This document shows positions 24,421 through 64,000 of a DNA stretch of 64,000 bases, one piece after another. The position numbers and the translations under genes are program-made. Positions within the stretch are counted from its first letter, which is position 1. Every line of letters begins with the position of its first letter. A model generated the notes under the pieces. The model ran no database searches and had not been told where the DNA came from. It was given only the letters and a program-made list of their open reading frames with translations. This DNA is from Calothrix sp. HK-06 (GTDB lineage: Bacteria > Cyanobacteriota > Cyanobacteriia > Cyanobacteriales > Nostocaceae), in the NCBI RefSeq assembly GCF_001904745.1, contig NZ_MRCD01000002.1, positions 137,938 to 201,937 of the forward strand, in the 5' to 3' direction.

Positions 24421-24502
24421 GCGGATGTGGCGGAATTGGCAGACGCGCTAGATTTAGGTTCTAGTATCGTAAGGTGTGAAGGTTCAAGTCCTTTCATCCG
24501 CA
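24421..24502 (+). tRNA. tRNA-Leu (anticodon UAG)
   Basis: 82 nt class II tRNA. The acceptor arms GCGGATG and CATCCGC pair, with discriminator A. The D-arm region is TGGCGGAATTGGCAGACGCG, the anticodon stem CTAGA/TCTAG holds the loop TTTAGGT with anticodon TAG, a long variable arm follows, and the T-arm is GGTTCAAGTCC. CCA is not encoded. It reads CUA-type leucine codons and lies 80 bases after alr. Confidence 0.95.
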
Positions 24503-25405: not shown

Positions 25406-26509
25406 ATGAGTACAACTCCTCTCGATAGTTATAGGGTATTTCAGAAGCTACACCCACTATCGTTGCTAGCGCAGTTAACTAGTCGCCGTGCAACTGGCTG
25501 TTTGAAAGTATTGACTGGTGCGATTTCTTGGTCGCTTTATCTTGAGGAGGGTAAACTTACCTATGCCTCATACTCAAATCAACTGTTTGATTGGCTTGAT
25601 GGACACTTAGAACGTTTGGCTCGACAAATACCTACTTTGAATCGCTCGACTCGAATGCAGATGCGACTGTTATTCGAGCCGAAACACATTAATCAATCGA
25701 TTGTACAAGCTGACTATCAAGCTATTTGTTGGTTGGTTAATCGTGATTACATGATAAAAGAGCAAGCATCTGTATTAATTGAGGAATTAGCGCTCGAAGT
25801 ATTAGAGTCGTTTCTAACGTTGAAAGAGGGTAGTTACGAATTTAGTCGCGAAACAGCTTTAGATGACCTTCCTAAGTTTTGTCGTCTAGATTTAAGAACT
25901 TTGGTTGAACAATGTCAAAGACAATTACGAAGTCGCTACAGCTATTCTGCTCCTGATGTAATTACCCACATTGAGGAGCGAAATGAGGCGCCACAATATG
26001 ATGAGTCAAAAAACGAAGATAGCCAGCAAGTATCTAGCAGCATTCATACTACAGATACTTATGACAAGAATGACAATAATATAAATGTAGAAATTAACAC
26101 TATAGGAGGTAATAAGCAGTATTCAACCAAGCAACTTCGTAAAAAAGTGTACACAGTTGCTTGTATCGATGACAGTCTAACCGTTTTAAGCTCCATTAAG
26201 CGGTTTTTGGATGAAAGTACTTTTGCGGTGGTGATGATAAATGACCCAGTGAAAGCTTTAATGCAAATTCTTCGCAGTAAGCCCGATTTAATCTTACTGG
26301 ATGTGGAAATGCCGAATTTAGATGGGTATGAGTTGTGTTCGCTTTTGCGAAGACATTCATCATTTAAGGATATACCAATAGTAATGGTTACAGGTCGAAC
26401 GGGCTTTATTGACCGCGCCAAAGCCAAGATGGTACGTTCTAGTGGTTATTTGACAAAGCCATTTACTCAATCTGAGTTATTGAAAATGGTTTTCAAACAC
26501 ATAACTTAG
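25406..26509 (+). CDS. PatA/PixG-type response regulator (PATAN + receiver)
   Basis: 367 residues. The N-terminal PATAN-like domain (about 1-180) has PLSLLAQLTSRRATGCLKVL and SWSLYLEEGKLTYAS. A polar linker rich in Asn/Asp follows (about 190-245), then a CheY-type receiver with phospho-acceptor Asp299 in LILLDVEMPNLDGYE and the lysine in LTKPFTQ. This is the architecture of PatA, PixG and the first regulator of cyanobacterial pilus-taxis operons (pix, pil, hmp). It heads an operon with CheY, CheW, MCP and CheA genes, so a role in phototaxis or hormogonium motility through type IV pili is likely. Choice among pixG, pilG or hmpA names needs a tree. Confidence 0.88.
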   Translation: MSTTPLDSYRVFQKLHPLSLLAQLTSRRATGCLKVLTGAISWSLYLEEGKLTYASYSNQLFDWLDGHLERLARQIPTLNRSTRMQMRLLFEPKHINQSIVQADYQAICWLVNRDYMIKEQASVLIEELALEVLESFLTLKEGSYEFSRETALDDLPKFCRLDLRTLVEQCQRQLRSRYSYSAPDVITHIEERNEAPQYDESKNEDSQQVSSSIHTTDTYDKNDNNINVEINTIGGNKQYSTKQLRKKVYTVACIDDSLTVLSSIKRFLDESTFAVVMINDPVKALMQILRSKPDLILLDVEMPNLDGYELCSLLRRHSSFKDIPIVMVTGRTGFIDRAKAKMVRSSGYLTKPFTQSELLKMVFKHIT

Positions 26510-26611
26510 ATTTAATTTTTAAGCTTTAGCTATTTGGGATTTATTCCCAAATATAAATTAAATTTATCAAATTTGTTTATACAATTCGATTATTATTTGA
26601 GGGAATTTAAT

Positions 26612-26989
26612 ATGACTCTTACAATGTTAAGCACAATTTTAATAGTCGAAGATTCTCCTAGTGAATTAGAGTTAATGAGTCACTATCTCAAAGAAAGTGG
26701 CTACGAAGTTATTCAAGCGACAGGCGCCAAAGAAGCTTTGGAAAAAGCCTCGATAGAAAAGCCTGATGTGATAGTAACCGATGTTGTAATGCCTGGAATG
26801 AGTGGATTTGAACTGTGCCGTGCGCTCAAGCGAAATCCTAACACAGAAAACGTACCAATTGTTGTTTGCAGTTCCAAAAACCAAGAGATTGACCGTTTAT
26901 GGGCAATGCGACAAGGTGCAGATGCTTATTTGACTAAACCTTACACGCGCGACGAACTACTGCTAGCTATCAAATCACTTGCAATGTAA
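26612..26989 (+). CDS. CheY-like response regulator (PixH/PilH type)
   Basis: 125 residues from the ATG at 26612, preceded by GAGGG; an upstream in-frame start at 26534 adds a hydrophobic stretch with no family match. It is a stand-alone receiver with acidic pocket EDS, phospho-acceptor Asp57 in VIVTDVVMPGMSG, a serine in VCSSKNQ and the lysine in LTKPYTRDE. As the second gene of the taxis operon it is the expected phosphate shuttle or sink for the CheA hybrid. It ends 10 bases before the CheW gene. Confidence 0.9.
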   Translation: MTLTMLSTILIVEDSPSELELMSHYLKESGYEVIQATGAKEALEKASIEKPDVIVTDVVMPGMSGFELCRALKRNPNTENVPIVVCSSKNQEIDRLWAMRQGADAYLTKPYTRDELLLAIKSLAM

Positions 26990-26999
26990 TTATTAATAT

Positions 27000-27497
27000 A
27001 TGAACAATCCGAAACTTCCACTCTCGACAATAGAAAACTTAACTAGCTTGGGAGACGGCTATCTCAAGTTTCACATTAACCAGCAAACTACTGCGGTTAT
27101 TTCGATGCTTCATACCCAAGAAGCTATTGTAGTGCCTGTTGAGTCAGTAACTTCGATGCCGGGAATGCGAGAGTGTATTTTGGGGTTGATGAATTGGCGC
27201 AGTCGCATAGTTTGGGTAGTTGATTTACCAAGAATACTCAATTTAGAGTCTATAGAAACTCGATTGCGTCAGTACAGCGTAATTATTATACGAGTTGATT
27301 CGCTATTATTAGGCTTAGTTGTTGATGAGATTATTGGCACGGTTAAATTTATTCCTGATGAGATTCATTCGCCAATTGGACAAGTTGCATCAAGCTTAGT
27401 TCCATATTTACGCGGTTGCGTTATACAACAGCAAGAAACGCTATTAGTGTTAGATGCTCACGCAATTGTACATTCTTCTGCGTTAAAAGCAGATTAA
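27000..27497 (+). CDS. CheW-like adaptor (PixI/PilI type)
   Basis: 165 residues with the CheW fold: AVVPVESV-like strand (AIVVPVESVTSMPGM), CILGLMNWRSRIVWVVDLPRIL and LLGLVVDEIIGTVKF. CheW proteins bridge chemoreceptors and CheA in the signalling array. It is 10 bases from the CheY gene and upstream of two receptors. There is no extra domain, and the length is typical for the cyanobacterial taxis loci. Confidence 0.9.
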   Translation: MNNPKLPLSTIENLTSLGDGYLKFHINQQTTAVISMLHTQEAIVVPVESVTSMPGMRECILGLMNWRSRIVWVVDLPRILNLESIETRLRQYSVIIIRVDSLLLGLVVDEIIGTVKFIPDEIHSPIGQVASSLVPYLRGCVIQQQETLLVLDAHAIVHSSALKAD

Positions 27498-27662: not shown

Positions 27663-30437
27663 ATGTTTAATAAAACTGAGCCTGCAAAGAGCAGCGATAC
27701 TCAAAATAAACCGTTAATGCCTACAGAATCTAACAAAGGCACAGATAAGAATAATAAAATCATTTTGTATTCTCAGGAATCTAATTTTTCTAATCATAAT
27801 ATTAATAACTCTGTGGCAGGAAAATTTCGACAGCTAAGTTTGCGGACAAAGGCAACAATTATTGCAATTGCAATTAGTACTCTTCCTGTTTTGGGGTTTG
27901 GAATTTTATCTTATTTAATCGCGAGTAAATCAATTGAGAATAAGTTTACTCAGTCGCAGCAATCAGAAACTGAAGGTTTAGCCGATAAAGTCAGCCGCTT
28001 TATGGTTGAACGTTATTCTAATGTTCAAGTATTGGCAAACCTACCAATTTCTACAAATCGAAGAATTAGCGAATCAGTTTCTACTCAAGAAAAACAAGTT
28101 GTTCTAGATAAAATTGCTGAGACGAGTAAAGTCTATGACAGCATCGCCGTTGTCGATTTAGACGGCAACGTCATTGTACAATCTAAAGGCAGTGTAATAC
28201 CATCAAATATTGGTGACAGAGATTACATCAAAGCTGTTAAACGAGAAGACCGTCCTTATATAAGCCAACCTCAATTATCCCCATCATCAAATAAAGTCAG
28301 TATTTATACTGTGTCTCCTGTCAAGGATCATGTAAGTAATGAAACGGTTGCAATTTTAAGAGCAAGAATGCCTGTCGAATCATTAGAGAGTGTGATTCAA
28401 AACTATGGGGGGGTAGGTAGAAAGTATAGTATTGCTGACGCAAATGGAAAAGTTTTTGTCGCAAGCAAAAAAGACCAAGTTGGCAAAAATGTTAATACTC
28501 AGAAATCAGATGGAGACGAAGTTGTTAGCTCTGCTTCTACAACAACCGTTCAAGGTTTACCCGATTTAAAATGGAAAGCAGTGTTGGCAACCAACAAAGC
28601 AACAGCATTTGATGCACAGCGTCAGTTATTATTAACTACCGTTATTGGTACTGGGTTAACTGCATTGCTTGTAGCAATGCTTGCTTACTTACTCGCAAAA
28701 CGTGCAACGGAACCAATATTAAATGCAACTGCTGCGGTTGCCAGGTTAGGAGAAGGGCAACTAGATACACGCTTGGAAGTTGAGCGTGGTGATGAATTAG
28801 GTGTTTTAGGCGCCAATATTAATCAAATGGCAGAGCAAATGCAAGCTCTGTTGAAAAGGCAAGAGTTGGATGCTGAACGGGCAAAACTTTTGGTTGAAAT
28901 TACATTACGAATGCGGCAAACACTTAAATACGATGAAATTACAAAAACCGCAGTTAGAGAAATTCGTCAAGCATTATTAGTTGACCGAGTGGTTTTTTAT
29001 AAGTTCGACTTACAAACTTTAGAAGGAGAAATTATTTCTGAGTCTGTTGTGGCAGGTTATCCAAAAATGATGGGTGTAGAAATTGATGACCCTTGTTTCC
29101 GCGAGAGACATGCAGAAACTTATAAAGATGGACGAGTTCGGGTCATTAATAATATCTACCAAGACTCAAGTTTGAAAAATGCTGCTTGCTACATTAAAAT
29201 GCTTGAGAAATTCGCAGTCAAAGCTAACTTAATTGTACCCGTAATTAAGCAAGGTAAATTGATTGGGTTGCTTATCGCTCACCACTGTGACAGTCCTCGT
29301 CAATGGCAAGCATCAGAAGTTGAATTGTTTAAGCAACTTGGTATTCAAATTGGCTATGCTCTTGAACAAGCCCAACTTCTAGAAACCGTCGAAAAAGGTA
29401 AAATGGTTGCCGAACAAAGCACTGAAGACGAACGCCATCAAAAAGAAGCCTTACAAATGCAACTTCTAGAACTACTTAGCGAAGTTGAAGGCGCCGCGAG
29501 CGGTGATTTAACTGTACGTGCGGATGTTACTGCTGGCGAAATTGGCACCGTCGCCGACTTCTTTAACTCGATTGTTGAGAGTTTGCGTGAGATTGTTACC
29601 CAAGTTCAACAAACAGCAATAAAAGTTAACGATTCAATTAACGTTAATTCTGGCGCCATTAACCAACTCGCTGACGAAGCACTCGAACAAGCAGCTGAAA
29701 TCAATCGTACTCTCAGTGCAGTTGATAGCATGACAAAAGACATGCAAGCAGTCGCCCAAAACGCTCAAAAGGCCGCGCATGTAACTAACACAGCGCGAAA
29801 CACAGCTTCAAAGAGTGGCATGGCGATGGATATGACGGTGCAAAATATCTTGAGCTTACGCGAAACAGTCGGAGAAACAGCGAAAAAAGTTAAGCGTTTG
29901 GGTGAGTCAACGCAGCAAATTTCGCGAGTTGTGGCACTTATTAACCAAATTTCAATGCAAACGAACTTACTTGCCATCAATGCTGGTATCGAAGCAGCTC
30001 GCGCCGGAGAAGAGGGTCAAGGATTTATTGTTGTAGCTGAAGAGGTGGGAGAGCTAGCGGCACGTTCGGCAGCAGCAACAAAAGAAATTGAGCAAATTGT
30101 CGAAAATATTCAGCGCGAAACCAGTGAGGTTGTACAGGCAATGGAACTGGGAACCACACAAGTTGTAGAAGGGACTCATATTGTAGAAGATGCTAAATCA
30201 AGCTTGAATCAAATTTTAGAGGTATCACGTCAAATCGATGCTTTGGTACAATCTATATCAAATGCTACGGCATCGCAGTTAGAAACTTCCAGCACGGTTA
30301 GCGAACTAATGAAGCAAATTGCTGCATCTTCGCAACGTACTAGTACTTCCTCACGCCAAGTTTCCCAGTCATTACAGCAAACAGTGGCAATATCTGAGCA
30401 ACTACAATCAACCGTCGGAACCTTCAAAGTCAATTAG
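27663..30437 (+). CDS. Methyl-accepting chemoreceptor with Cache, HAMP and cyanobacteriochrome-like GAF
   Basis: 924 residues. A polar cytoplasmic start precedes membrane helix 1 (about 62-88), an extracellular Cache-type sensor (about 95-310), helix 2 (about 320-345) and HAMP. A GAF domain (about 400-570) and then the signalling coiled coil (about 590-924) follow, with hairpin tip [27 protein letters not shown]. The GAF holds DPCF with Cys478 (DXCF motif) and a second cysteine, Cys509, where canonical cyanobacteriochromes attach bilin; the usual next residue His is Tyr510. It resembles PixJ-type phototaxis receptors. A photoreceptor role is plausible but unproven. Confidence 0.88.
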
Positions 30438-30763: not shown

Positions 30764-33700
30764 ATGTCACAGGATAAAGAGCATGAAATCCAGATGCAGT
30801 TTCTGGAAGAAGCGACGGATTATCTGAATACGCTCGAAGGAGTTCTTCTTGAAATCGACAGCAACCGAATTGATATTGATAAAATCAATGCGGCACTAAG
30901 AGCTGCCCACTCAATTAAAGGTGGAGCAGGAATGATGGGGTTTCGTGTGTTAAGCGATTTGGCACACCGAATCGAAGATTCGTTTAAAGTTTTAAAAACA
31001 AAACGAAATTCTGTTTTGGTTGATACCGAGCTTCAAAGTTTGTTGTTAACAAGTGTTGATTGGCTGCGTCAAATCGTCGATTTACATTCGCAGGGCACTA
31101 CTTTAGATCCAGAATGGCTAGCAACTTTTTGTAACCCTGTTTTCGATGAGTTGCACGAGCGTTTAGGTGACCCAAGCGAAGAAGATGCTTCCACTATCCT
31201 GTCATCGGAAGATGGGCAAGATATAATTCCCCTATTATTTCAAACTGAGGTTGAAGGCTGTTTAGAGCGTCTTGAGTCAATGTTGGCAGACAACCAACCC
31301 GAAAGCTTATTAGAAGAAGTCAGCATTATGGCTGCGGAGTTGGGTGGGTTAGGGGAGATGTTACAACTCGAACCTTTTAGCCGTTTATGCGAGTCAGTGG
31401 CACATCATTTAGAATACGCCGACCCTGCCCATATTCCTACTGTTGCCCGTGCTGCACTTTCATCATGGCGCCGTTCGCAAGCGTTAGTTTTAACGAATCA
31501 ACTCGATAGTTTACCCTACGAACTTGATTTAGAAGAAGTTACCCCTGCTAGCACTACTGCCGTTACAGTTATAAATGATACAGAGCATATCGAGTTAACT
31601 CCAGAAGAAATATCTATAGAAATTCCAGACCACATAGGCGCCGCAGAAACAGCAGTTAGTAAAATAGAGTCAAATTGGCTAAACGACGAAATTTTACATA
31701 CTGATTTTGAGGCATTAGAAGCAGCGTTTGCAATTGAAAGTGCAGCAGCAGAATTTGAGGAAGTGCAATTAATCGAAACCGCAGATGCATCTAGTGTTAT
31801 CGGTGACGAATATCAAGATTACCAGCTACACACCGAGCGTGAGAGTACAGAGCGTAAAGTTGAGCAACCCGAAAAAGCTAGAGAACGTGACCAAGAAAAC
31901 ACAGTACGTGTTCCTAGTAAGCAACTTGAACAAATCAACGATTTGTTTGGGGAACTAGTTATTCAAAGAAATGGTTTAAATTTACAACTCGAACGTTTAC
32001 GTAAATTAGTTCGTAACCTCAACCAGCGAGTTCAAGTACTAGAGCGTGAAAACCAGTACTTACGTGCAGCATACGATAAAATTTCCACAAGAGCATCTGA
32101 GTACTTTAATACATCGCCGACAGTAATATCCGAAGTCCCTTCTTACTTTGTTGCCAGTCAAGAACTCGAAGACAGTTTGGAATTTGCAGATGGAACAGAG
32201 GTGCAAAGTATTGAACATCGCTTTGATGCTTTGGAAATGGACCGTTACAACGAGCTGAATCTATTATCGCAAGAGGTAATGGAAACTATAGTTCAGGTGC
32301 AAGAAGTTACAACTGACTTACAGTTAAGTCTTGATGATACAGATAATATTTCTCGTAAACTCAATAAAACTTCTAAACAACTCCAACGAAAACTAACTCA
32401 AGTGCGGATGCGTCCACTTTCGGACGTATTAGACCGTTTTCCGCGTGCGTTGCGGGACTTGTGCATTGAATATAGTAAAAACGTTCAACTAAAAATTGAA
32501 GGTGGAAACACTTTAATTGAGCGTAGCATACTAGAAGCGTTAAACGACCCCTTAATGCACTTAGTTAGAAACGCTTTCGACCACGGTATTGAAGACCCTG
32601 CTTCGAGGGTAGCAGCTGGAAAATCTGAGCAGGGAACAATCGAAATTAAAGCTACACACCAAGGCAACCGTACTATTATTACAGTACGTGATGATGGTCG
32701 CGGTATTCCACTTTCTAAAATTCGCAATCGCGCTTTAGCGATGGGATTAGATGAAGCATTACTTACTGCTGCCACTGAAGAAGAGTTACTATCATTAATT
32801 TTTGAACCTGGTTTTAGTACTTCCGAGCAAGTTACCGCTCTTTCGGGTCGCGGTGTTGGCATGGATGTAGTTAGAAACAACCTCAAGCAGGTTCGAGGCG
32901 ATGTTAAAGTTAATACAAGTTTAGGTGAGGGAACTACTTTTAGTCTCTCAGTACCATTTACCCTTTCCGTCGCACGAGTGCTGCTTGTAGAAAGTAACCG
33001 TATGTTATTAGCATTCCCTACCGATATAGTAGAAGAAATTTTCTTGTCACAAGAAGACCTAGTATATCCAATGGGAAATGGAGAAGTTCTTAACTGGCAG
33101 GGTAACATGCTGCCATTAGTGCGTCTGGGTAGATATTTAGAGTTTAACTGTCCTCGCTTTGATAACCCTAACTTAGAAACGGCGCCTGCAATTAATGCGG
33201 AGTCAGTATTAATTATTCGGGGTAACAACCAACCTGTAGCTGTACAGCTAGACAAAACGTGGGGAGAACAAGAAGTTGCGATACGTTTGGTCGAAGGAAA
33301 TATTCCATTACCTCCAGGTTTCAACAACTGTACAATTTTAGGCGATGGAAGAGTAGTGCCTTTAGTCAACGCCAGTGAGCTATTATATGCCATTGCAGCG
33401 AGTGAGCGTACACCTAGGAACCAACAGTTACCATCCGCACGGTTAAAAACTCCTTTCTTGAATTCAGTTGAAGAAAAACCCATACCACCAAAAAACCAAA
33501 AAGGTACAATTTTAATTGTCGATGACTCAATAAACGTGCGTCGTTTTCTTGCCTTAACTCTTGAAAAAGCTGGATACAAAGTAGAACAAGCAAAAGACGG
33601 GCAAGATGCAATTGAAAAACTCCAAACAGGTTTAAGAGTTCAAGCTGTAATTTGCGACATTGAAATGCCACGTGTTGACGGTTATGGGTTCTTAGGACGT

Positions 33701-33886
33701 GTAAAAGCCAATACTGATTTTAAAGGTATACCTGTAGCGATGTTGACATCGCGCAGTAGCGATAAACACCGTCAACTAGCAATTCAATTAGGTGCCCGTG
33801 CTTACTTTTCAAAACCATACAACGAGCAAGAATTACTAAGAACTTTGGAAGAAATTATCTTTCCAATGGCGGGTGCAACTAAATAG
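30764..33886 (+). CDS. CheA-type hybrid histidine kinase with receiver domain (PixL/PilL/HmpE type)
   Basis: 1040 residues. An N-terminal Hpt domain carries the phospho-acceptor His49 in LRAAHSIKGGAGMMGF. An acidic linker follows, then a dimerisation helix region (about 375-540) and an HATPase domain with the N box LMHLVRNAFDHGIEDPASR and glycine boxes DDGRGIP and GRGVGMDVV. A CheW-like regulatory domain and a C-terminal receiver with Asp965 in VICDIEMPRVDGY complete it. It phosphorylates the operon's CheY and PatA-type regulators in response to the two receptors. The single Hpt distinguishes it from multi-Hpt ChpA proteins. An antisense frame of 364 codons in this gene is only a shadow. Confidence 0.93.
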   Translation: MSQDKEHEIQMQFLEEATDYLNTLEGVLLEIDSNRIDIDKINAALRAAHSIKGGAGMMGFRVLSDLAHRIEDSFKVLKTKRNSVLVDTELQSLLLTSVDWLRQIVDLHSQGTTLDPEWLATFCNPVFDELHERLGDPSEEDASTILSSEDGQDIIPLLFQTEVEGCLERLESMLADNQPESLLEEVSIMAAELGGLGEMLQLEPFSRLCESVAHHLEYADPAHIPTVARAALSSWRRSQALVLTNQLDSLPYELDLEEVTPASTTAVTVINDTEHIELTPEEISIEIPDHIGAAETAVSKIESNWLNDEILHTDFEALEAAFAIESAAAEFEEVQLIETADASSVIGDEYQDYQLHTERESTERKVEQPEKARERDQENTVRVPSKQLEQINDLFGELVIQRNGLNLQLERLRKLVRNLNQRVQVLERENQYLRAAYDKISTRASEYFNTSPTVISEVPSYFVASQELEDSLEFADGTEVQSIEHRFDALEMDRYNELNLLSQEVMETIVQVQEVTTDLQLSLDDTDNISRKLNKTSKQLQRKLTQVRMRPLSDVLDRFPRALRDLCIEYSKNVQLKIEGGNTLIERSILEALNDPLMHLVRNAFDHGIEDPASRVAAGKSEQGTIEIKATHQGNRTIITVRDDGRGIPLSKIRNRALAMGLDEALLTAATEEELLSLIFEPGFSTSEQVTALSGRGVGMDVVRNNLKQVRGDVKVNTSLGEGTTFSLSVPFTLSVARVLLVESNRMLLAFPTDIVEEIFLSQEDLVYPMGNGEVLNWQGNMLPLVRLGRYLEFNCPRFDNPNLETAPAINAESVLIIRGNNQPVAVQLDKTWGEQEVAIRLVEGNIPLPPGFNNCTILGDGRVVPLVNASELLYAIAASERTPRNQQLPSARLKTPFLNSVEEKPIPPKNQKGTILIVDDSINVRRFLALTLEKAGYKVEQAKDGQDAIEKLQTGLRVQAVICDIEMPRVDGYGFLGRVKANTDFKGIPVAMLTSRSSDKHRQLAIQLGARAYFSKPYNEQELLRTLEEIIFPMAGATK

Positions 33887-34044: not shown

Positions 34045-36933
34045 ATGTATAAACAAGAACTATCATTAAATAAAAAACGATCACCTATTTTAGAATATTT
34101 CTATAATTTTCCTATTAGCCGTAAGCAAATGATAGCTTTAATAGCTTGCGAAATGGTATCTATCCTAGGTATAGGAATGGGCGCCACGCTAATAATTACT
34201 CAAGGATTACGAAACCAAATACTCGAACAAGCGAAATCAGAAATTGCCGTTACAGACATAAACTATAATATCAAAGTTAATCAAATGGGGTTTGGGTTTC
34301 GTGGACAATCAGATAATCAAGCATTAATTCGTGCAACTAAATTTCATAATTCCAGTAGATCATTAAATCGAATTTCTCGGTCGGAAGTAAAGCAAATTTT
34401 AATAAATGAAGTCAAAGCTAGACAAATTGAATATGCAACCTTGGTAGGTAAAGATTTAAAGATTATTGCAAATGCCAATACTGACCGAACAGGTGAAGAA
34501 TTTAACCCAGATAATTTAGTTAGCGAAGTTTTAAATAATCCTAAACAGATTAAAGCATCTCGTGTTGTGAGTTGGAGTGAACTAAGCAAAGAAGCACCAC
34601 CCCTACCAACAGGGTTTAGTAATCAAGATGCTCTCATTCGTTATACAATTACACCTGTAAAAGACCCAGTGAATCAAGCTGTTATAGGTGCTTTAGTATC
34701 AGGAGATATTGTCAATGGCAAAAGTGTAATTGCGAAACAAACTCTACAAGCAACTAGAGGTGGTTATAGCGCGGTTTATTTTTACAAAGCGAATGGAAAT
34801 TTTGCTTTAGCTAGTTCGCTTCATCAAGGAGAGTCTCAAGATATTAACCAAGCTTTATCGAATGTTGAACTGCCTATTGAGAGTAAGTCATTACTTACTG
34901 CTGCTGCAAAATCTGCCAACGGTCAAGTTATAACTGAAAGGATGAATCTAGGCGCCCAAAGTTATACAATGGCTTTTAAAGCGATTCCTAGTAAAATTAT
35001 TGAAAATACAGACGAACAGCAAGCTATTTACGATAAAACTTCAACAGCTATTTTAGTTAGAGGAACACCAGAGTCATCGCTGAATAACTTGCTAATGCAA
35101 AGTTTATTCCAGCAAATGCTAACAGTGTTTATTGCTTTAATACTAGTTGGCGCCTGTATAGTAATATTACGACGCTCAATAGTGAAGCCAGTTGATAACC
35201 TTAAAAATGCTGCTCAAAAATTTGCAGATAGTGTAACTACTGGAAATCATAGAGATATTCAAACATCGCGAGCGCAAATTTTTGCAAAAGATGAAATTGG
35301 CGAATTAGCAGTCAGCTTTAATACAATGGCTGACACAATTTATACACAAATTCAACAAAGAGAAAACGAAGCACATTTAGCATTACAACTTAATGCGATT
35401 ACAGCAGTAATACGCGAATCACTCGATAGTGAGAAAATTATAAAAGTCGCTGTAATAAATACACGTAAAGCGATGCAAGTTGCAAGAACGCTGTTTTACA
35501 GTTTAAATGAATGCCAAAGTCAAGTGGTTGCAGAGTCAGTTGACTACAAATCTAACACACTTTTAGGAACAAATATCAAAAATCCTTATGATATTAAGGA
35601 GAATATAGAAGATTTACCAATTGGTAGCATTAAGACCGTTAATAATATAGATATTGCTTCTAATACACTGCGCTTGAGTCAGACTTGTATCAATTACTTA
35701 CAAAAATTTAACGTTCAAGCATACTTATTGGCGCCTATATTTGTGAATAAAGAGCTATATGGTTTATTCATAGCACACCAATGTGAAGATGCACGTCCGT
35801 GGCAAGACAGCGAAATAAATCTATTTAAACAAGTTGCGGTTCAAATTGGTTATGCGTTAGAACAATCTCAACTACTACTACAAGTTCAACAAGGACGAAT
35901 AATAGCAGAAACAGTCTCTGTTGAAGAACGACGACAAAAAGAAAATCTTCAGATGCAGCTTATGGAACTTCTTCAAGATGTTGAAGGTGCAGTCAGTGGA
36001 GATTTAACCGTGCGTGCTGATGTAAGCGTTGGTGAAATTGGAACTGTCGCTGACTTTTTTAACTCTATCGTCGAAAGTTTACGTGATATTGTCACGAAAG
36101 TAAAAGCAACAGCAACCCAAGTCAATGAAGCAATCGGTTCCAACTCAGGAGAAATTCGACAGCTAGCAGAAGAAGCACTTGAACAAACAGCAGAAATTAA
36201 TATCACACTTGAAACAGTTGATAGCATGACGATAGAAATGCAAAATGTCGCTGTTTCAGCACGTCAAGCATCAACAGTAGCTTCATTAGCAGCGCAAAAC
36301 GCAGAAGAAAGCGAAAAAGCAATTGACCGTACAGTTCAAAAAATAATGCACTTACGAGAAACAGTAGGTGAGACAGCCAAAAAAGTGAAGCGCTTAGGAG
36401 AATCAACGCAGCAAATCTCGCGTGTAGTGTCATTAATCAATCAAATTGCCGTACAAACAAATCTTTTAGCTATTAATGCGGGTATTGAAGCAGCACGTGC
36501 AGGTGAAGAAGGACAAGGTTTTGCGGTGGTAGCAGAAGAAGTTAGTGAACTTGCTGCACGTTCATCGTCTGCGACCAAAGAAATAGAGAACATTTTAGAA
36601 AACGTTCAAAGAGAAGCGACCGAACTAGTGCAGGTTATCGAATTAGAAACAACGCAGGTCGTAGAGGGTACGCAAGTAGTAGAAGACGCAAAATACAGTC
36701 TTGCCCAGATTTTGGAAGTATCGCGTCAAGTAAACTTACTAGTCAACTCTATCTCTAATGCTACAGATTCGCAATTAGAAATATCACAAATAGTAAGTAC
36801 ACTAGTCAAGCAAATCGCCGTAACATCGCAGCGTACAACAACATCATCGCAAAAAGTATCACAATCATTACAACAAACAGTAGCAATTTCGCAACAACTA
36901 CAGAAAACTGTTGGCGCCTTTAAAATTAGTTAA
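34045..36933 (+). CDS. Second methyl-accepting chemoreceptor with Cache, HAMP and GAF domains
   Basis: 962 residues with the same order as the receptor upstream of cheA: helix 1 (about 28-55), extracellular sensor, helix 2 (about 350-372), HAMP, GAF (about 445-610) and a signalling domain. The hairpin tip is [27 protein letters not shown]. The C-terminal half is very close to the first receptor, so the two arose by duplication, while the extracellular parts have diverged. In the GAF the DXCF site is lost (KNPYD) and the second cysteine is kept (Cys548) but followed by Ile. It is probably not photoactive. It likely shares the operon's CheA and CheW in mixed arrays. Confidence 0.9.
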
Positions 36934-61645: not shown

Positions 61646-64000
61646 CTATGTGGAAATCATTATGTGTTTAATTGGAATTTCAATCCAAAATTCTGTACCT
61701 TTATCAGGTTCACAGAAACACTCAATTTTACCTCCATGTTTTTCGACAATAATTTGGTAACTAATTGATAATCCTAACCCAGTACCTTTACCAGGTTCTT
61801 TTGTTGTAAAGAAGGGGTCAAATATACGCGATACCACATCATCAGGAATACCACAACCGTTATCATGTATACGAATTAATACTCTGTCGTTGTGTACAAC
61901 TTGAGAATGAATGATTATTTGTGGTAACTGTAATTTTGTACTATTCTCTTTTTGATGCTGTTTATATCCAATTTCAATTGCGTCTATAGCGTTGCTTAAA
62001 ATATTCATGAATACTTGATTCAATAAGGCAGCATAACATTCAACAAGTGGTAAGTCTCCATATTTTTTAATAACATCTATTGGTGGAGTGTTGACAGATG
62101 AACGCAAACGGTGCTGTAAAATTAGTAATGCACTATCAATTCCTCCATGAATATCTACATGTTTTATTTCTGCATGGTCAAGACGCGAAAATGTACGTAG
62201 TGACTCAACTAATTGTAATATCCTTTCGGCGCCTGAGTGCATTGATAAAATTGTTTTGGGTAGGTCTTCGATGATGTAATCTAAATCAATTTTAGATGCT
62301 TGTGCTTGAATTTTTTGTACTGGCTCTGGATATTGATGCTGATAAATTTTCATTAATTGTAGTATACTTTGAGTGTATTCGCTTACATGAGATAAATTAC
62401 CGTAGATAAAATTAATCGGATTGTTAATTTCATGAGCAATACCAGCAACTAGCTGTCCTAAACCAGCCATTTTTTCACCTTGAATTAGCTGAGTTTGGGT
62501 TCGCTGTAATTCTTTGAGTGCTTCGTTGAGTTTTTCTTTTTGAAGTCGAGTTTGCTTGAGTAACTCTGCTTGCTGTAATGCTACAGCTAACTGTAAACCA
62601 ATTTGTGCAAGTAAACTTACTTCATCTTCCATCCACTCGCGCGGTTTAGTATTTTGATATGCAGCAAGTAACCCCCATAAATTATCACCTTGAAAAATTG
62701 GCACCATTACATATGCACGTGCTTGAATTTGTTCGAGAAATACTAATTGCAGGTCAGAATACTGTTGTTTATAAATATCATCAACCGTTATGGTTTTCTG
62801 AAGCGGCGTATTGAGTTCGCCTAATGCTTTTTGTATAAAAGTATTCATTGTCAAAAATGAATTTCCAATTAATGGCATCCATTCTGAAGCTACTGACTCT
62901 GCCACAAAATCACCACTGCCATCGGTATATAAACTATAAATAGCTACTCGTTCAACTTTTAATAAATTCCTAACTTCTTGTGTTGTGGTAGCAAAAATTG
63001 TATTTAAGTCAAGCGATTGACGAATTTTTTCTACCGTAGTGGCTAATGCTTTTTCGCGTTCTGCTGCTCTTGTGAGTTGTGCGGCTTGTGCTTGAACTTG
63101 TTTGAGGGTTTCTGCTTGTTGAAGTGCCACACCCAACTGTACTCCAACTTGTGCAAGTAAGTTAACTTCTTCTTCTTCCCAATAACGCGGTTGAGAATTT
63201 TGATACGCGACTAGTAACCCCCAGAGCTTTTCACCTTGTAAAATGGGAACAAAAGTTTCGTTACGTGGATACTTTCCTGTTTTTGCTGCTTCTAAAAATG
63301 TCTTTTCAATCGTTGGTTGGCTTTTTCCAACAGGTGTCCAACCATCAAGAATTGAATCAGCGACAAATTCCCCACTCCAATCAGGATAAAATCTATAAAT
63401 TGCCACACGTTCGACATTTAACAAACGTCGAACTTCTTGTGTAGTTGCTTGAAAAATACTCTCTATATCTAACGATTGTCGAATTTTATCAACTGTTGTT
63501 GCTAAAGCACGCTGACGTTCTGCTGCTTTTTCTAGCTGCGCTGCTTGTGAAGAAACTTGTTGAAAGTACTCAGCTTGTTGAAAAGCTGTACCAAGTTGAG
63601 TACTAATTTGTGTAAGTAAGCAAATTTCGTCATCTTCCCACTTTCGCGGCGCCGAGTTTTGGAAAACAGCTAATAGTCCCCAAAGTTTGTTACCATGATA
63701 AATAGCAACAATTGCATATGCTCGTGCTTGATAACTTTCTAAGACGCGAATGTAACAGTCACTAAATCCAGCATTGTAAATATCATCGCAAGTTCGGAAA
63801 ATTTCACCACGCATAAACCTTCCACCCTGAGTTTCTTGAAGGTAGGTATCAGGAATTCGAGCATTTACTAATAACTTTATACTACATTCGCTAATATTTG
63901 CACGTAATTCTGGTTGTTGTAATTGTTTATCTAGTAAAGAATTCCAACCCGTTTCAATAGATTCAACAACAAAATCTCCACTCCAGTCAGGGTTAAACCG
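61646..64000 (-). CDS. Multi-GAF sensor histidine kinase, N-terminus beyond the window
   Basis: The frame stays open to the right edge, so at least 784 residues are read and the true start is outside. It has three tandem GAF-like domains, each with a [12 protein letters not shown] strand, a [11 protein letters not shown] or similar segment, and a W-G-L-L-x-A-Y-Q-N strand. A coiled linker and a kinase core follow: H box [20 protein letters not shown] box [15 protein letters not shown], and glycine boxes [10 protein letters not shown] and [11 protein letters not shown]. No cysteine is in the phytochrome position, so bilin binding is unlikely for these GAFs. No response regulator is adjacent. 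An internal ATG at 63814 is not the real start. Confidence 0.92.

Follow-up and report, generated by a model that had tools for sequence, protein, structure and literature searches.

The window, a 64,000-nucleotide stretch of the Calothrix sp. HK-06 genome, carries six tandem plus-strand genes that form a pix-type operon (Table 1). The fourth of them encodes a membrane receptor that joins a cyanobacteriochrome (CBCR) GAF domain to an MCP output, as in the PixJ/tax1 system, and both the content and the order of a pixGHIJL-type (tax1) cluster are complete at the locus. We take this order to be that of Synechocystis tax1, pixGHIJL, as well. In content, the first five genes here match the Synechocystis tax1/pix cluster: PATAN-REC, CheY, CheW, MCP-CBCR and CheA (PMC5812497). 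The two systems differ in that the window receptor, whose role in phototaxis is putative, has one GAF and not the two of PixJ1, and in that cheA is followed, in the window, by another receptor whose GAF is degenerate. The order PATAN-REC, CheY, CheW, MCP, CheA is kept across 80 ortholog loci with few weak or truncated exceptions; the nearest orthologs of the receptor (91-94%) belong to Calothrix sp. PCC 7716, PCC 7103 and FI2-JRJ7 and to Dulcicalothrix PCC 7102. Upstream of the operon lies a tRNA gene (24421-24502, Rfam), and a plasmid search gave no match. At the far end of the window, positions 62552-64000 belong to a minus-strand frame of 1215 aa that encodes part of a large protein with several GAFs; one of these, past the window end, has DHCF with Cys-His (L004).

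Table 1. Features of the pix-type operon and of its receptor, in window coordinates
Feature	Position	Strand	Basis
pixG-like PATAN (DUF4388)-receiver response regulator	25406..26509	+	Pfam, synteny
pixH-like CheY	26534..26989	+	Pfam, synteny
pixI-like CheW	27000..27497	+	Pfam, synteny
PixJ-type receptor gene, 924 aa, dCache-HAMP-GAF(CBCR)-MCP	27663..30437	+	ORF and Pfam; ATG start
dCache_1 sensor domain, aa 90-285, presumably periplasmic	27930..28517	+	Pfam 1.7e-14
HAMP domain, aa 343-394	28689..28844	+	Pfam
CBCR GAF domain, aa 407-575	28881..29387	+	sequence match, conservation, predicted structure
Cys478, the Cys of the DXCF motif (DPCF)	29094..29096	+	sequence, ortholog alignment
aa 482-495 (R482, Y487, G490, R491, R493, I495), decaying upon cysteine loss	29106..29147	+	ortholog alignment
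Canonical bilin Cys (Cys509) with Tyr510; the loop before them exceeds that of TePixJ by about 3 residues	29187..29192	+	alignment
MCPsignal domain, aa 706-882	29778..30308	+	Pfam
pixL-like CheA with C-terminal receiver	30764..33886	+	Pfam, synteny
Second HAMP-GAF-MCP receptor, GAF without DXCF (NPYDI), degenerate bilin site	34045..36933	+	Pfam, alignment

A preliminary description of this DNA had reported a receptor frame with DPCF at Cys478 and a second cysteine, Cys509, followed by Tyr510, and the open reading frame and its translation confirm all of this; the reverse complement in the same register holds many stops. Asp476-Pro477-Cys478-Phe479 makes up the Asp-Xaa-Cys-Phe motif, with Cys478 within IDDPCF, and Cys509 stands within NAACY, where Tyr510 takes the place of the His that usually follows the canonical cysteine. 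The third and last cysteine of the protein is Cys542, in AHHC. The Pfam GAF match is shorter than the domain as we delimit it, spanning aa 424-567. The preliminary description also saw in the Cache domain and the GAF a receptor that may join a chemical and a light input. Both domains are indeed present, but the architecture is that of an ordinary PixJ and no new combination; we rejected the idea of an unusual pairing because it is identical in L031, L035 and L044. Among PixJ relatives, L035, which is close to TePixJ, has the dCache-HAMP-GAF layout. UirS/SynEtr1 likewise place a two-cysteine CBCR in a receptor with a chemical-sensing membrane domain (PMC3546692), but theirs has a histidine kinase output and a domain of the ethylene-binding type.

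Is this GAF a cyanobacteriochrome? By sequence, its closest solved structures are RcaE (6e-35), PPHK (1e-33) and TePixJ (2e-30). An AlphaFold2 model of the GAF, built with 48 orthologs, reached a pLDDT of 88.7, and Foldseek placed CBCRs at the top of its list (TePixJ 4glq, rmsd 1.3 over 146 columns, TMt 0.91). VIA-align gives CBCRs and phytochromes equal scores (Z about 22-24), so the fold by itself cannot tell the two apart. The separation comes from a phytochrome-rooted GAF tree, in which the window clade together with L050 is sister to the TePixJ-type DXCF clade (supports 97/85 and 98/85); the outgroup consists of two Cph2-like phytochrome GAFs from the same genome, assigned from their DPCH motif, and the root position is the weak point of the tree. 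A first tree, rooted on a distant non-CBCR GAF, had put the window clade basal to all CBCRs. We rejected this placement as a long-branch root because it changed with the Cph2-type phytochrome outgroup, and we trust the phytochrome root over the distant one. Thus, the GAF falls inside the CBCRs, beside the TePixJ clade, and the preliminary assignment to a DXCF type related to PixJ stands; a tree position outside the CBCRs, which the preliminary description had named as a refutation, is not what the phytochrome-rooted tree shows.

By tree position and predicted structure, then, the receptor has a CBCR domain that belongs to the DXCF/PixJ lineage, and because of this kinship its GAF is likely to carry a covalent bilin. 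The supply exists, since the genome encodes two heme oxygenases and one ferredoxin-dependent bilin reductase. TePixJ (Thermosynechococcus, blue/green) and its relatives share with the window protein the DXCF GAF lineage, DPCF with a canonical cysteine and the MCP output; the window GAF differs in its Cys-Tyr instead of Cys-His and is about 38% identical to that of TePixJ, and alignment places the longer loop before the canonical cysteine throughout the window clade. GAF domains are so abundant and diverse that the cysteines of DPCF and Cys-Tyr might have arisen by chance in an ordinary GAF that binds no bilin, but we give this almost no credence: the tree position inside the CBCRs, the fold match to TePixJ and conservation in 41 of 41 orthologs stand against it. 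In fact, the motif is no accident, because the GAF matches solved CBCRs and because both cysteines and the tyrosine are invariant in 41 orthologs whose mean GAF identity is about 67%.

These 41 orthologs are defined by the presence of both cysteines and take in every ortholog outside a single Nostoc-group clade. Tyr510 is found in all 41 and also in all 37 cysteine-less orthologs (78 ortholog GAFs, across Nostocales), and it is a signature of the clade because it is kept with and without the cysteines. The preliminary description had entertained that Tyr for His marks a light-insensitive domain. This does not hold, since the tyrosine is fixed clade-wide alongside both cysteines; insensitivity would appear as cysteine loss, which is seen in Nostoc and not in the window. 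For the same reason, its invariance with intact cysteines in the 41 orthologs, we rejected Tyr510 as a sign of decay. L033_g1 and the two GAFs of L049, which group on the TePixJ side, also combine DPCF with Cys-Tyr. So does an ETR1-like ethylene-receptor histidine kinase of the same genome as the window (L002, C111:251239), whose GAF lies near RcaE in the tree, apart from the window clade. L134, of the red/green type, has Cys-Tyr without DXCF. At the post-cysteine position, the GAF tree requires seven changes between Tyr, His and further residues; by this sequence comparison, Cys-Tyr arises repeatedly among CBCRs that keep their cysteines. RcaE (PMC9415938) and also CcaS have Leu there. His is thus usual, not defining, and because the position varies among CBCRs it is plausibly a tuning site. 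With these observations, the question of the likelier reading of Cys-Tyr is settled.

The engineered biliverdin-binding AnPixJ BV4 was considered as a Cys-Tyr precedent and rejected: the solved structure, 5zoh, keeps Cys-His and is changed elsewhere. Among the DXCF domains characterised in the literature searched, which covers few subscription papers, none has Cys-Tyr, and the photocycle given below is extrapolated for this reason. An imidazole after the canonical cysteine is reported to hold back adduct formation and to aid cleavage of the 15E thioether (PMC9415938). The absence of His could disturb the two-cysteine cycle. Tyr510 may also be structural, with no tuning role, because it is invariant in the cysteine-less orthologs too.

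Of our new results, the most useful is that the Nostoc orthologs have lost their bilin site jointly. These keep the architecture, the synteny and the tyrosine, as well as the operon and the fold family, but they have lost both cysteines and other residues of the bilin region. Both cysteines are gone in Nostoc, Desmonostoc, Komarekiella, Cylindrospermum and relatives (37 orthologs, among L084-L128), which mostly show DPYF with Gly, Ser, Ala or Thr before the Tyr. In a tree of the protein without its GAF, the joint loss maps to one branch (SH-aLRT 98). In L123 (Nostoc sp. PA-18-2419), a cysteine does fill the DXCF site, though its surroundings are altered (YEPCLW) and the canonical cysteine is missing. 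Of the sites that are conserved where both cysteines are present and relaxed where they are lost, the GAF has more than its share (10/55, against 10/241 elsewhere; p=9e-4, or p=0.007 with the two cysteines left out), the loss being a single event, so that the co-decay has one independent replicate; an independent-pairs test of the joint cysteine loss yielded 3 pairs, too few events for significance. Besides the cysteines, the co-decaying GAF sites include the six of the 482-495 stretch (Table 1) and N522. R482 aligns with H498 of TePixJ, a contact of the B-ring propionate (PMC6955287).

Rates of change tell the same two sets apart. In the two-cysteine orthologs, mean identity is 67% in the GAF and 47% in the dCache domain, and the GAF-to-dCache divergence ratio, taken from identities, rises from about 0.63 in this set to 1.03 in the cysteine-less one. 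For the GAF, the pairs sampled gave dN/dS values of 0.11-0.21 among two-cysteine orthologs and of 0.20-0.28 among cysteine-less ones; purifying selection acts in both sets, so the Nostoc ortholog is no pseudogene. We infer from these sequences that selection for bilin binding acts in the window clade and ceased in Nostoc, whose PixJ orthologs are probably no longer light sensors. The co-decay in Nostoc argues that the window protein binds bilin.

The second receptor of the operon has the GAF motifs NPYDI and QTCIN, and among its orthologs sampled only L153 and L154 keep DPCF and Cys-His, the others having decayed. In the eight cysteine-less Nostoc-group genomes checked, we found no full-length ortholog of this second receptor. 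All eight encode a multi-GAF receptor with 64-87% identity to L169 (1369-3966, minus strand), which like L170, L171 and L172 is a PixJ-like multi-GAF receptor and whose GAFs have DPCF and Cys-His. Such a receptor is also present in seven two-cysteine genomes (59-66% identity to L169); no close match to L169 was found in the window genome or its Calothrix/Rivularia relatives. A redundant light receptor may have permitted the loss in Nostoc, a suggestion drawn from one event.

How would the window receptor work? We consider it probable that it is a working PixJ (tax1)-type photoreceptor, probably blue-absorbing in the dark; the candidate rests on its two cysteines, its PixJ-lineage GAF of CBCR fold, the MCP/Che/PATAN context and purifying selection. 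DXCF CBCRs attach phycocyanobilin (PCB), all or part of which they turn into PVB, and their DXCF cysteine forms a reversible adduct at C10 that gives the blue dark state (PMC4223177). By analogy, we expect the same frame in the window GAF. PCB would join Cys509 at ring A, and Cys478 would bond C10 reversibly. The resulting 15Z dark state would absorb blue and, on illumination, turn into a longer-wavelength 15E state (green/teal to orange). The MCP coiled coil would then carry the signal to CheA, from where it would reach the PATAN and CheY regulators, which would set type IV pilus activity in hormogonia; this output through PixL and the PATAN regulators follows the tax1 model (PMC5812497). Tyr510 and the longer loop would most likely tune the breakage and re-formation of the second thioether or the conversion of PCB to PVB, a role we favour over abolished bilin binding. 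Given the part reported for His (PMC9415938), Tyr may be expected to alter the balance or kinetics of the adduct.

That same part of His in thioether cleavage gives weight to another photocycle, in which the domain binds bilin and is photoactive but the second thioether, lacking His, is permanent or never formed, leaving a single-cysteine cycle (for example in the green or red region) or a locked violet/blue cycle unlike that of TePixJ. The Leu of green/red RcaE speaks in its favour. We nevertheless find it unlikely, because Cys478 is conserved as strictly as Cys509 (41/41) in an intact DPCF and is therefore under selection; moreover, the sister PixJ-lineage GAFs L049 and L033_g1 carry DPCF with Cys-Tyr. 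Much less probable still is a light-blind GAF, structural or bound to a small ligand, in a chemoreceptor read through its dCache domain. The Nostoc orthologs probably went that way and the second operon receptor largely did too, but in the window protein the bilin cysteines are present; they and the bilin-region sites are invariant in its clade, decaying only where the cysteines are lost, and its GAF is under purifying selection. The reading as a working photoreceptor is the one we retain.

We tentatively envision, at slightly less than even confidence, that Nostocales hold a distinct DXCF lineage, with Cys-Tyr, a long pre-cysteine loop and perhaps a photocycle of its own, and that in the common ancestor of Nostoc and its allies this light sensor became a light-independent receptor through joint loss of its cysteines while the operon was kept whole. 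If true, this would provide a natural before/after pair for the rewiring of a photoreceptor to another input. The orthologs of this one operon, about 40 with both cysteines and about 40 with neither, form a test set with which the role of Tyr510 and the light input of the pix system in filamentous cyanobacteria can be probed directly. Light sensing through the PixJ ortholog should not be assumed for a pix-type operon in Nostoc.
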